Source: an uncultured Pelagibacteraceae bacterium
Lineage (GTDB): Bacteria > Pseudomonadota > Alphaproteobacteria > Pelagibacterales > Pelagibacteraceae
Reading direction: 5' to 3'
Assembly: GCA_902598655.1 (NCBI GenBank)
Contig: CACKCQ010000001.1
Span: 1 to 64,000 of the forward strand
Length of the DNA stretch: 64,000 bases
Part shown: piece by piece, positions 38,065 to 43,932 of the stretch
How the letters are laid out: each line of letters starts with the position of its first letter
How positions within the stretch are numbered: position 1 is the first letter of the stretch
Translations under genes and position numbers: made by a program
Notes under the pieces: generated by a model
The model's input: the letters and a program-made list of their open reading frames with translations, nothing else
Told to the model about the DNA's origin: nothing
The model's database searches: none

Positions 38065-38128
38065 TAGCTAATATTGTGGAACTCCAATGTAAAAAATTAA
38101 TAATTATTTGGATTTATTTTAATGAAAT

Positions 38129-38484
38129 GCCAGATAAACTATAAGCCGGGTTCTGTCATTTAAACTTATCATTTATCTAGGCTTTAAATCACTTTAAAGC
38201 TCAAGCAACTAACCCTGATGACTAGCCAAAGACTGCTTTTAGTTATTGCTAACAATGTCATCTCTACTCAGTCTTGCTCCCAGTGGGGTTTTCCATGCGC
38301 TAGCTGTTACCAACTTAGCCGGTGTGCTCTTACCACACCTTTTCACCCTTGCCTTGATAAGGCGGTTTATTTTCTGTGGCACTATCCCTGGGGTTTCCCC
38401 CGCCAACTGTTAACTGGCACTGTGTCTTTGTAGAGCCCGGACTTTCCTCTTTAATAAATTAAAGCGATAAGTCATTTATCTGGC
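38129..38484 (-). ncRNA. rnpB: RNase P RNA, bacterial type A
   Basis: This is the catalytic RNA that trims the 5' ends of pre-tRNAs. On the minus strand the 5' part contains the universal core GAGGAAAGTCCGGGC, and the 3' end contains ACAGAACCCGGCTTATAG; these pair as P4 and neighbouring core. The ends are set by a perfect 10-base P1 helix: GCCAGATAAA (38475-38484) with TTTATCTGGC (38129-38138). The length of about 356 bases is right for type A. An upstream TTGAAA and AATAAT pair may be its promoter, with weak spacing. It lies between the amidase gene and the mraZ promoter, both on the same strand. Confidence 0.96.
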
Positions 38485-41815: not shown

Positions 41816-41892
41816 TGGTGGGCCCGCCAGGACTCGAACCTGGGACCAATACATTATGAGTGTACTGCTCTAACCAACTGAGCTACAGGCCC
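41816..41892 (-). tRNA. tRNA with CAU anticodon (Ile2 or elongator Met)
   Basis: A full 77-base cloverleaf with encoded CCA. Acceptor stem GGGCCTG/CGGGCCC, D arm with GG, anticodon loop CTCATAA, and a normal T-loop TTCGAGT are all in place. The anticodon CAU leaves elongator Met or the lysidine-modified Ile2. C4-G69 and C5-G68 in the acceptor stem are known positive signals for TilS, so Ile2 is slightly favoured. It is not an initiator, as position 1-72 is paired. It lies downstream of rpoD and tRNA-Val. Confidence 0.95.
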
Positions 41893-42031: not shown

Positions 42032-42106
42032 TGGTGGGCCGTGTTGGTTACGCTCCAACTACCCCTGCAATGTCAATGCAGTACTCTACTATTGAGCTAA
42101 CGGCCC
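42032..42106 (-). tRNA. tRNA-Val (GAC) with altered D- and T-loops
   Basis: A 75-base cloverleaf with encoded CCA. The acceptor stem GGGCCGT/ACGGCCC, anticodon stem CTGCA/TGCAG and T stem GTTGG/CCAAC are perfect; the D stem has one G-U pair. The anticodon loop TTGACAT gives GAC, reading GTC and GTT valine codons. The T-loop is AGCGTAA rather than TTCRANY, so T54, T55 and A58 are all changed. The 7-base D-loop AATAGTA lacks the GG pair; only a G19-C56 contact remains possible. Perfect stems suggest it is functional. Its first base is the last base of the rpoD stop codon, so it is probably cut from the rpoD transcript. Confidence 0.85.
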
Positions 42107-43932
42107 TAGCTTTCTAAGAAACTTTTCAACTGTTTAGACCTACTTGGGTGTTTTAACTTTCGTAAAGCTTTCGCCTCTATTTGTCTTATTCTTTCTCTTG
42201 TAACTGAAAACTGTAAACCTACTTCTTCAAGTGTATGATCAGTATTCATACCAACGCCAAACCTCATTCTTAAAACCCTTTCCTCTCTAGGTGTAAGAGT
42301 TGATAAAATTTTAGTAGTTGCTTCACTTAAATTTGATTTAATAGCTTGTTCTAATGGTGCCAAAGCTTTTGTATCTTCTATGAAATCTCCAAGACTACTA
42401 TCTTCTTCATCGCCAACAGGTTTTTCCAATGATACAGGCTCCTTAGAAATTTTTAAAACTTTTCTTACTTTCTCTAAAGGCATTCTTAATTTTTTTGCTA
42501 ATTCTTCTGGAGTTGCCTCTCTTCCGAACTCACTTAAAATCAGTCTTTGAGTTCTAACAATCTTATTTATAGTTTCAATCATGTGAACTGGAATTCTTAT
42601 TGTTCTAGCTTGATCTGCTATAGATCTTGTTATTGCTTGTCTTATCCACCATGTAGCATAAGTGGAGAATTTATAGCCTCTTCTATATTCAAACTTATCA
42701 ACTGCTTTCATCAAACCTATATTTCCTTCTTGGATTAAATCTAAAAATTGCAGACCTCTGTTTGTATATTTTTTTGCTATTGATATTACAAGTCTTAGAT
42801 TAGCTTCTACCATTTCTTTTTTTGCTATTCGAGACTCCTTTTCCCCTTTTTGAACTCTGCTGACAAGTTTTTTGAATTCAGTTACAGATATACCTAGTTT
42901 ATTACTTATATCGATCAACCTTTCCTTAATGTTCTTAAATTCATTTTTATTTTTTTGAAAAAACTTTTTCCATACTTCATTTGTGTCTAAAAACTCTTTT
43001 AAGTTTGGATTGATTTCATTCCCAACGTAAAACTTTATAAATTCTTCTCTTGATATCTTTGACTCCAGAGCCAATCTTAAAAGATTTCCTTCTAATGATA
43101 CTATTTTTTTGTTTTCGATGTAATGCTTTTGGACAAGTTCCTCCAGAACTGATGGAGATAGTTGAAGTGACTTTATGAGCTCAAGTATATCATCTACAAT
43201 TTTTTTATAATTTTTTTCCTTAGATATGGAAAATTTACTTGCACTTAGGATGCATATTAACTTCTCTTTTTGATATTTAATAAGTTTATTGTATTCTTTA
43301 GTTAAATTATGGACTGTTTGTAAAACTTTAGGTTTAATTTCAGTTTCCATAGCTGCAAGCGTTGGATTAAATTCATCTTCATCAGCGTTATTATTTTCTT
43401 CCTGATTTTGATTATCATCTTGCTTTTTTTGCTTAGAACTGTTTGAATTTTCATCATCATCCATATAATTAGTATCAATATCTATTATCTCTCTAACTAA
43501 AATCTCATCATTCTGCAGTTTTGCATCCCACTCAAAAAATTGTTGGGCAGTTATAGGGCTTTGTGACAAAGCGTTAAGCATTACATCTTTTCCGGCTTCT
43601 ATTCTTTTGGCTATCGCAATTTCACCTTCTCTTGAAAGTAATTCAACTCCTCCCATTTCTCTAAGGTACATTCTTATTGGATCGTCACTTTTTTCTAATG
43701 ATTTGCCTTCCTCTTTTGAAGAAGCGTCTTTTTTTCTTAAAACTTTATAGTCAGATTTTTTTTCAACTAAAATAATTTTCTCATCTAAAATATGAATGAA
43801 GGCTTGTGCCAAATTCTCTGTTGATAAATTTCTTTTACCTAATGATTTATTTAACTCTTCATGAGTTATAAATCCTCTATGGATACCTCGACCCATTAAT
43901 CTTGCAAATGATTTTGTAATTATACGTTCCAC
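42106..43932 (-). CDS. rpoD: Primary sigma factor RpoD (sigma-70)
   Basis: RpoD directs RNA polymerase to housekeeping promoters. Regions are in order: a 1.1-like N-terminus ([23 protein letters not shown]), region 1.2 ([29 protein letters not shown]), an acidic non-conserved region, region 2 ([57 protein letters not shown]), region 3 and the helix-turn-helix of region 4.2 ([27 protein letters not shown]). It has 608 residues and starts with GTG. The order yqeY-dnaG-rpoD is the alphaproteobacterial macromolecular synthesis operon. Its TAG stop shares a base with tRNA-Val. Confidence 0.97.

Follow-up and report, generated by a model that had tools for sequence, protein, structure and literature searches.

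The window, by which we mean the whole 64,000-nucleotide stretch of DNA that was analysed, carries a tRNA-Val(GAC) gene on its minus strand, directly downstream of an rpoD-like sigma factor ORF. The tRNA was called by both ARAGORN and Rfam (RF00005, 53.6 bits; gathering threshold 29). The features of the locus are as follows:

42106..43932, minus strand: rpoD-like sigma factor ORF of 608 aa, directly upstream of the tRNA (from the ORF list and the sequence; named from its sequence, with no family search)
42032..42106, minus strand: tRNA-Val(GAC) with an alternative elbow and an encoded CCA (ARAGORN, Rfam RF00005 and fold)
42087..42093, minus strand: D-loop AAUAGUA (A14 A15 U16 A18 G19 U20 A21), with A18 in place of G18 and with G19 kept (sequence)
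42072..42074, minus strand: anticodon GAC, expected to read GUC and GUU (ARAGORN)
42060..42064, minus strand: variable loop GGGUA, positions 44-48 (sequence)
42048..42054, minus strand: T-loop AGCGUAA (A54 G55 C56 G57 U58 A59 A60), with G55 in place of U55 and A54-U58 in place of U54-A58 (sequence)

Read 5′ to 3′, tRNA-Val(GAC) is made up of GGGCCGU, UA, GCUC, the D-loop, GAGU, A, CUGCA, UUGACAU, UGCAG, GGGUA, GUUGG, the T-loop, CCAAC, ACGGCCC, A and CCA, the last being encoded in the DNA at 42034-42032. The full cloverleaf was the minimum-energy fold (−28.6 kcal/mol, z −3.29, equalled by 0 of 200 shuffles), and all four helices were paired, with a single G-U wobble (G10-U25 in the D-stem). 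This bore out the first-pass annotation, which had described the acceptor, anticodon and T stems as fully paired. Its reading of the T-loop AGCGTAA as a change of T54, T55 and A58 was exact, the bases being A54, G55 and U58. Its statement that the D-loop AATAGTA lacks the G18-G19 pair held for G18, which is replaced by A18, and failed for G19, which is present. Both bases of G19-C56, a contact that it thought might remain, are in place, and the 54-58 pair is swapped from T-A to A-T (A54-U58), as it had said. In addition, A48 lies opposite A15, and the 15-48 pair is therefore also non-canonical. The score above gathering and the full cloverleaf place the gene in RF00005, and the G18-G19 and T-loop UUCRANY signature is absent (A18, A54, G55, U58). 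On its sequence and fold, tRNA-Val(GAC) is best described as a variant inside the tRNA family, not outside it.

The rpoD-like ORF ends with a TAG whose final base, 42106, is also base 1 of the tRNA, and this overlap makes it likely that the two are co-transcribed. A simple promoter and terminator scan found promoters near the chance level (4 found versus 2.4 expected) and no terminators. On the same strand of the window, an ordinary RNase P RNA of bacterial class A lies at 38126-38483 (288.7 bits), and ARAGORN called a tRNA-Met(CAU) with a GGGCCUG acceptor at 41816-41892. Three CAU tRNAs are present in G012, a complete one-contig genome of the same genus, and the window's tRNA, with its GGGCCUG acceptor, is of neither the initiator nor the GGCGGGG type; it may be a tRNA-Ile read with lysidine.

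The window's genome (86.6% complete) has 23 tRNAs, one of which has the anticodon GAC. G012 has 32 tRNAs, and its sole tRNA-Val(GAC) is the alternative-elbow one, beside one normal tRNA-Val(UAC). A count of tRNA-Val genes in a complete genome had been suggested in the first-pass annotation, which held that a second, normal tRNA-Val(GAC) would speak against its reading; no such gene was found in either genome. In the window ORFs of at least 150 aa, the Val codons were GUU (488), GUC (79), GUA (315) and GUG (79), that is, 567 of 961 were GUU or GUC, and the codons read by tRNA-Val(GAC) are common in the window. Among the tRNA matches retrieved from 27 genomes, tRNA-Val(GAC) was not seen in four (G055, G131, G081 and G033). 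These four genomes, together with the presence of tRNA-Val(UAC), suggest that tRNA-Val(GAC) may be dispensable beside tRNA-Val(UAC).

An identity search was performed in 41 genomes, 25 of the same genus and 16 of family f2. All 75 bases of tRNA-Val(GAC) were identical in 15 of the 25 same-genus genomes (its own included), and no match was found in the 16 f2 genomes. Furthermore, nine distinct Val variants from genera g1 (the window's genus), g7 and g8 were compared, all picked for the alternative elbow and two of them taken from the Val(GAC) genome survey. In these variants, every one of the 189 stem cells holds a standard pair, and both sides have changed in 11 of the 21 stem pairs. Meanwhile, A14, A15, A18, G19, A21, A54, G55, C56, U58 and A60 were constant, as was the variable loop GGGUA. 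A decaying or dead gene, or a sequencing error, would fit the Rfam score of tRNA-Val(GAC), which at 53.6 bits is the lowest of the 23 tRNAs in its own genome. However, decay was ruled out by the compensated stems under fixed loops and by the identity in 15 of 25 genomes. That identity makes a sequencing error very unlikely and led us to reject it as well, and of the 47 Val loci examined, 20 have the 3′ end of rpoD next to the tRNA (two of these with a canonical elbow). We regard the probability of decay or error as close to negligible, in agreement with the earlier impression that the gene did not look like decay: the broken stems and lack of conservation of a tRNA pseudogene were not found here.

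The loop-pair pattern AAUAGUA/AGCGUAA matched in 253 of 397 genomes of the order, whereas the reversed pattern gave no match in the same 397; conservation across the clade had been proposed as a check in the first-pass annotation, and the form is common in the genus. According to counts per group read by eye from the result table, the pattern was present in 220 of 271 genomes of g1, 2 of 5 of g7, none of 68 of the family's other genera and 31 of 53 of f2. Val, His and Thr were the isotypes with the loop pair among the matches listed, and, again among these, a second copy was carried by tRNA-His(GUG) in many g1 genomes. The 31 f2 matches were all tRNA-Thr(GGU), a form first seen in G025, whose tRNA-Val(GAC) is normal. 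One such tRNA-Thr(GGU), with a 4-base variable loop and AAUAGUA/AGCGUAA (L103, 51-124), was missed by ARAGORN and found by Rfam. A18/G55 combined with U54-A58 occurred in the tRNA-Phe(GAA) (L088) and tRNA-Thr(GGU) (L104) of G012 and in a tRNA-His of a freshwater Pelagibacteraceae genome (L516); the T-loops of this milder form in G012 are UGCGAAU (tRNA-Phe) and UGCAAGU (tRNA-Thr). The SAR11 label came from the first-pass annotation, and the genome's size, its AT-richness and L516 as a relative are consistent with it. Most other tRNAs of g1 have the canonical elbow. A looser pattern, run on a sample of 190 genomes of the window's class, matched in 3, namely the window and two genomes of a single family, and the reversed pattern gave 4 matches, indicating that the loop form is rare outside the group in this class. 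The two non-window matches both had UAGUA/AGCGUAA and the anticodon GGU.

Both elbow types were found at the Val locus of relatives. The survey of 27 chosen genomes covered 12 genera and yielded 23 Val(GAC) genes, of which 16 have the canonical and 7 the alternative elbow. In two g1 genomes, G069 and G067, the Val tRNA stands behind the same rpoD gene and shares the acceptor stem, with an elbow that is canonical (ACUGGUUA/UUCGAUU and ACCGGUUA/UUCAAUU, respectively). In a midpoint-rooted drawing of an rpoD protein tree with 19 rows (19 of the 20 rpoD-adjoining Val loci), G069 grouped with the window genome and G018 (98/94) and G067 fell in the other clade, so that the two canonical genomes lie in different clades among alternative-elbow genomes. 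The presence of both types at one locus in different branches points, as far as these sequences and the tree go, either to repeated exchange of the whole elbow as a unit or to movement of the gene by recombination.

Viral sequences allowed the coupling of the two loops to be counted. The exact loop pair was present in at least 120 stretches of IMG/VR; among the matches listed, 71 of 86 (80 loci, repeats kept) fit a cloverleaf and carried 17 anticodons, the other 15 rows having been dropped before the anticodon count. With the T-loop AGCGUAA fixed and the D-loop left free, 135 tRNAs in 27 D-loop types all had UAG, and with the D-loop AAUAGUA fixed and positions 54, 55 and 57-60 left free, G55 was present in 119 of 119. 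Because these pooled counts include loci earlier chosen by both loops, the tRNAs were recounted in loci new to each scan. All 72 distinct phage tRNAs in 24 D-loop types then had UAG, and G55 was found in 57 of 57 distinct tRNAs with 16 T-loop types. Rows that did not form a cloverleaf were dropped (13 and 24 in the pooled scans, 3 and 18 in the recount).

A cloverleaf scan blind to the loops, restricted to type I tRNAs with an encoded CCA, a 7-base T-loop and a variable loop of 4-5 bases, recovered 1714 distinct tRNAs from 302 viral loci, and the shuffled copies (one shuffle per locus, in two-base blocks) yielded none. Classed by bases 18-19 and 55-56, they were GG/UC (1148), AG/GC (416, a share inflated because the loci were chosen by elbow patterns), GG/GC (12, all with an AG readable as A18G19 and most of them ambiguous in this respect), AG/UC (4) and others (134). 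The others included 22 with GG and C55 and 11 with AG and U55 that lack C56 (9 UU, 1 UA and 1 UG). The 416 AG/GC tRNAs had 38 anticodons, all of which were also found with the canonical elbow. The 54-58 pair in the AG/G55 class was A-U in 215, U-A in 103, G-G in 70 and C-A in 22, with few others. Within the GG/U55 class, A54-U58 was seen in 54 rows. Exchanges at 19-56 are seen in phage tRNAs too, as in AGUGAUA with UUUGAUU (G18A19/U56).

As the loop-blind loci had been chosen by elbow, a second set was drawn by the Lys anticodon. In this set, the tRNAs with A18/G55 were 4 of the 76 for Lys and, across all isotypes, 16 of 485, after 34 of 111 rows had been dropped before the count. The unambiguous tRNAs were GG/U55 in 411, GG/G55 in 0, AG/U55 in 6 and AG/G55 in 16 (Fisher P 1.4e-24, which is only a guide, since related phages are not independent). 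The test left out 52 of the 485 rows: 39 with U55 and a D-loop AGG, readable as A18G19 or G18G19, 11 with other D-loops and 2 with C55. Two of the six AG/U55 rows have U56 and resemble G18A19 with U56.

The same scans bear on the possibility that the D- and T-loops are joined not by intercalation but by a Watson-Crick double helix (U16-A59, A18-U58, G19-C56). The window sequence can be drawn in this way. However, T-loops such as UGCGAUU, GGCAGAA, CGCAAAA and AGCGUUA occur with the D-loop AAUAGUA and break 18-58 or 16-59, and G55 is kept in every tRNA of both the pooled (119/119) and the new-loci (57/57) counts. The helix, rejected on this variation under a fixed D-loop, is extremely unlikely.

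Canonically, the elbow has G18 intercalating in the T-loop and making contact with Psi55 (excerpts of PMC4810234), and G18/Psi55 is treated as conserved in the accessible parts of reviews. A T-loop with G at position 2 is described as accepting an adenosine that intercalates and is contacted trans sugar-edge/Hoogsteen (accessible portion of PMC11363276). The coupling of A18 to G55 with G19-C56 kept is what an intercalation geometry of this riboswitch type predicts. In the sequence, A18 is combined with G55 in place of G18 with U(Psi)55, G19-C56 is retained and the T-loop is closed by A54-U58. In the mechanism that we propose by analogy with riboswitch T-loops, A18 would slide between G57 and U58 and contact G55 trans sugar-edge/Hoogsteen, and G55 would take over the role of Psi55 in the U-turn. 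A G55-type T-loop is defined by G at position 2, a purine at position 4 and a U-A closing pair; tRNA-Val(GAC) has G55 and R57, but its closing pair is A54-U58, whereas U54-A58 occurs in 103 phage AG/G55 rows. The geometry of A54-U58 is not obviously the same as that of U54-A58, and, judging by the set observed at 54-58 (A-U, G-G, C-A and U-A), the closing pair seems to retain its role with fewer constraints. We consider it highly probable that tRNA-Val(GAC) is a working valine tRNA for GUC and GUU that reaches its L-shape via a second self-consistent elbow.

Compared with canonical bacterial tRNA-Val(GAC), the window tRNA has the same cloverleaf, acceptor, anticodon and T-stem lengths, U8, A14, A21, G19-C56, G53-C61 and CCA, and it differs in A18/G55 for G18/Psi55, A54-U58 for U54-A58 and A15-A48 for R15-Y48. 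Steinberg and co-workers reportedly obtained E. coli suppressor tRNAs from D/T-loop libraries that were functional with changed D-T contacts, including 54-58; those were laboratory selections, whereas the A18-G55 elbow that we propose as a class, defined by A18 and G55 together with G19-C56 kept, is natural, and tRNA-Val(GAC) falls into it. The FMN riboswitch and other T-loops share with it the G at position 2 and an A that would intercalate between positions 4 and 5, but their contact lies within other structured RNAs (accessible portion of PMC11363276), and here it would form the elbow of a tRNA whose geometry is predicted. Eukaryotic tRNA-Ala with A54-A58 and R15-A48 is a further natural case of a 54-58 exchange with A48; unlike in the window tRNA, no 18-55 change is reported in the accessible part of PMC7566577. 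tRNA-Pyl likewise lacks G18G19 and T-Psi-C, but it has another secondary structure, a five-base D-loop and one isotype (excerpts of PMC7609411), whereas G19-C56 and a normal cloverleaf are kept here. In the open literature covered, no description of a natural A18-G55 elbow was found, and its novelty is provisional, as subscription papers lay mostly outside this scope; it included accessible parts of PMC7566577, PMC7912444, PMC4810234, PMC7609411, PMC5733544, PMC9023262, PMC6409571, PMC11363276, PMC6337575, PMC3937112, PMC11143913, PMC5309774 and PMC8704770.

The enzymes that modify positions 54 and 55 were searched for in related genomes. TruB was detected in 16 of 43 genomes, with 0 of 19 in g1, 0 of 8 in g8, g9, g10 and g12 together (g8 0/4, g9 0/2) and 16 of 16 in g5, g6, g7, g11 and f2 together (g7 5/5, f2 6/6 tested). 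The 19 g1 genomes in which it was undetected are G000, G012, G042 and 16 others, seven of them single contigs; in the controls, TruB gave a match in 14 of 14 genomes, 10 above the cut-off. TrmFO was not found above the cut-off in any of 13 genomes, five of them g1, and controls gave a match in 10 of 14. Its only matches were weak, partial and below the cut-off, the best lying in ORFs of 622-640 aa, the size of MnmG. TrmA (PF05958) matched in 1 of the same number of genomes (13; controls, 12 of 14) and was undetected in the five g1 genomes among them. From these searches, the g1 genus seems unable to make Psi55 or m5U54 by TruB, TrmFO or TrmA. The first-pass annotation had remarked that TruB and TrmA would lack their targets in this tRNA, a point overtaken by the finding that in the genus TruB was undetected in 19 of 19 genomes and TrmA in five of five, with TrmFO below the cut-off only. 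The proposed elbow would, with less certainty, be independent of T54 and Psi55 modification, a property that would suit a genus in which TruB, TrmFO and TrmA are undetected and also phages, in which host modification may not keep pace with the tRNAs.

The alternative elbow also occurs alongside TruB, in g7 (3 of 5 with the alternative Val) and in f2 (31 of 53 with the Thr form). The loss of TruB is thus at most permissive: it is neither needed nor enough for the alternative elbow, and as a sole cause it was rejected in view of the TruB-bearing g7 Val and f2 Thr cases. Relaxed constraint alone is a related explanation, in which U55 and U54 drifted after the loss of TruB, TrmFO and TrmA, and A18/G55 is neutral and brings no benefit. 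The undetected TruB (0/19 in g1, 0/4 in g8 and 0/2 in g9) and the lack of TrmFO above the cut-off (0/13) are in line with it. However, the elbow also arose where TruB is present (g7 and f2) and in phages, and the loops are constant over much of the genus, unlike what drift would give; we therefore consider this explanation unlikely. A phage elbow may instead have replaced the host version, given that the loop pair is common in phage tRNAs and that both alleles stand at one locus in distinct branches. No DNA-level match to tRNA-Val(GAC) was found in the INPHARED phage records, and this origin appears quite improbable to us; it is an account of where the elbow came from and does not compete with the mechanism.

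Cellular genomes outside the order also carry the elbow. When named species genomes were scanned for AAUAGNA combined with G55, using a pattern intended to omit G34 anticodons, 97 stretches were obtained, of which 53 loci had a cloverleaf at the match and 44 were dropped for having none. Initiator-like A18/G55 tRNAs (CAU, A11-U24, with the 1-72 pair missing in 6 of 7) were found in seven genomes, namely four WWE3, one Doudnabacteria, one Zambryskibacteria and L543, six of them Patescibacteria. With an initiator model built from three of the seven and the normal initiator of the window's genome, each genome gave one strong match (94.7-99 bits; next at most 61 bits), which in every case was the A18/G55 tRNA. 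On these model scores, the simplest reading is that translation starts with an A18/G55 tRNA in those seven genomes. Near-identical A18/G55 tRNAs with a UACAUAC acceptor and the odd anticodons CUA, AGU and AUU were also seen in Nostoc-type cyanobacteria (L455, L474, L480, L498, L506, L517 and L518).

These occurrences bear on whether the tRNA is kept for a non-translational job, with an elbow weakened to allow release by EF-Tu. One example of a non-translational tRNA is the tRNA-Gly that staphylococci use in cell-wall synthesis, with one isotype, extra copies and a dedicated pathway gene. The presence of tRNA-Val(UAC) and the four of 27 genomes in which GAC was not seen would agree with such a role. 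Against it, the same elbow is present in His, Thr and phage tRNAs (38 anticodons) and in initiator-like tRNAs, which can hardly all be non-translational; the loops are replaced by a matched pair instead of being randomly weakened; and GUU and GUC make up 567 of the 961 Val codons in the window. The tRNA-Gly pattern was not seen, as the elbow spans many isotypes and GAC is a single copy in G012. A purely non-translational role was rejected in view of the many isotypes and the initiator-like tRNAs, and a role of this kind is very unlikely overall.

Judged from sequence comparison, the change in the D-loop is compensated by that in the T-loop, and the two recur together in many types of tRNA. The compensation of A18 by G55, together with this recurrence, suggests that the contacts were replaced and not merely lost, and the gene, far from looking broken, seems to represent another route to a working tRNA. 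More broadly, tRNAs might have two interchangeable elbows, the second of which (A18-G55, with a free 54-58 pair) would be independent of modification, present in phages, in the sole initiators of Patescibacteria and in SAR11-like chromosomes, and switched as a unit; we give this wider view an even chance.

Finders of tRNAs, studies of their modification and tRNA engineering all build on G18-Psi55, a contact regarded as near-universal. The coupled alternative seen in phages, in start tRNAs and in bacteria abundant in the ocean would mean that the elbow has a second evolvable solution. With the alternative elbow, the reasons for keeping Psi55 and T54 could be studied in a natural experiment, and it may help to explain tRNAs missed by finders, such as the Thr one missed by ARAGORN. 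A18-G55 could also provide a two-base handle for the design of orthogonal tRNAs.
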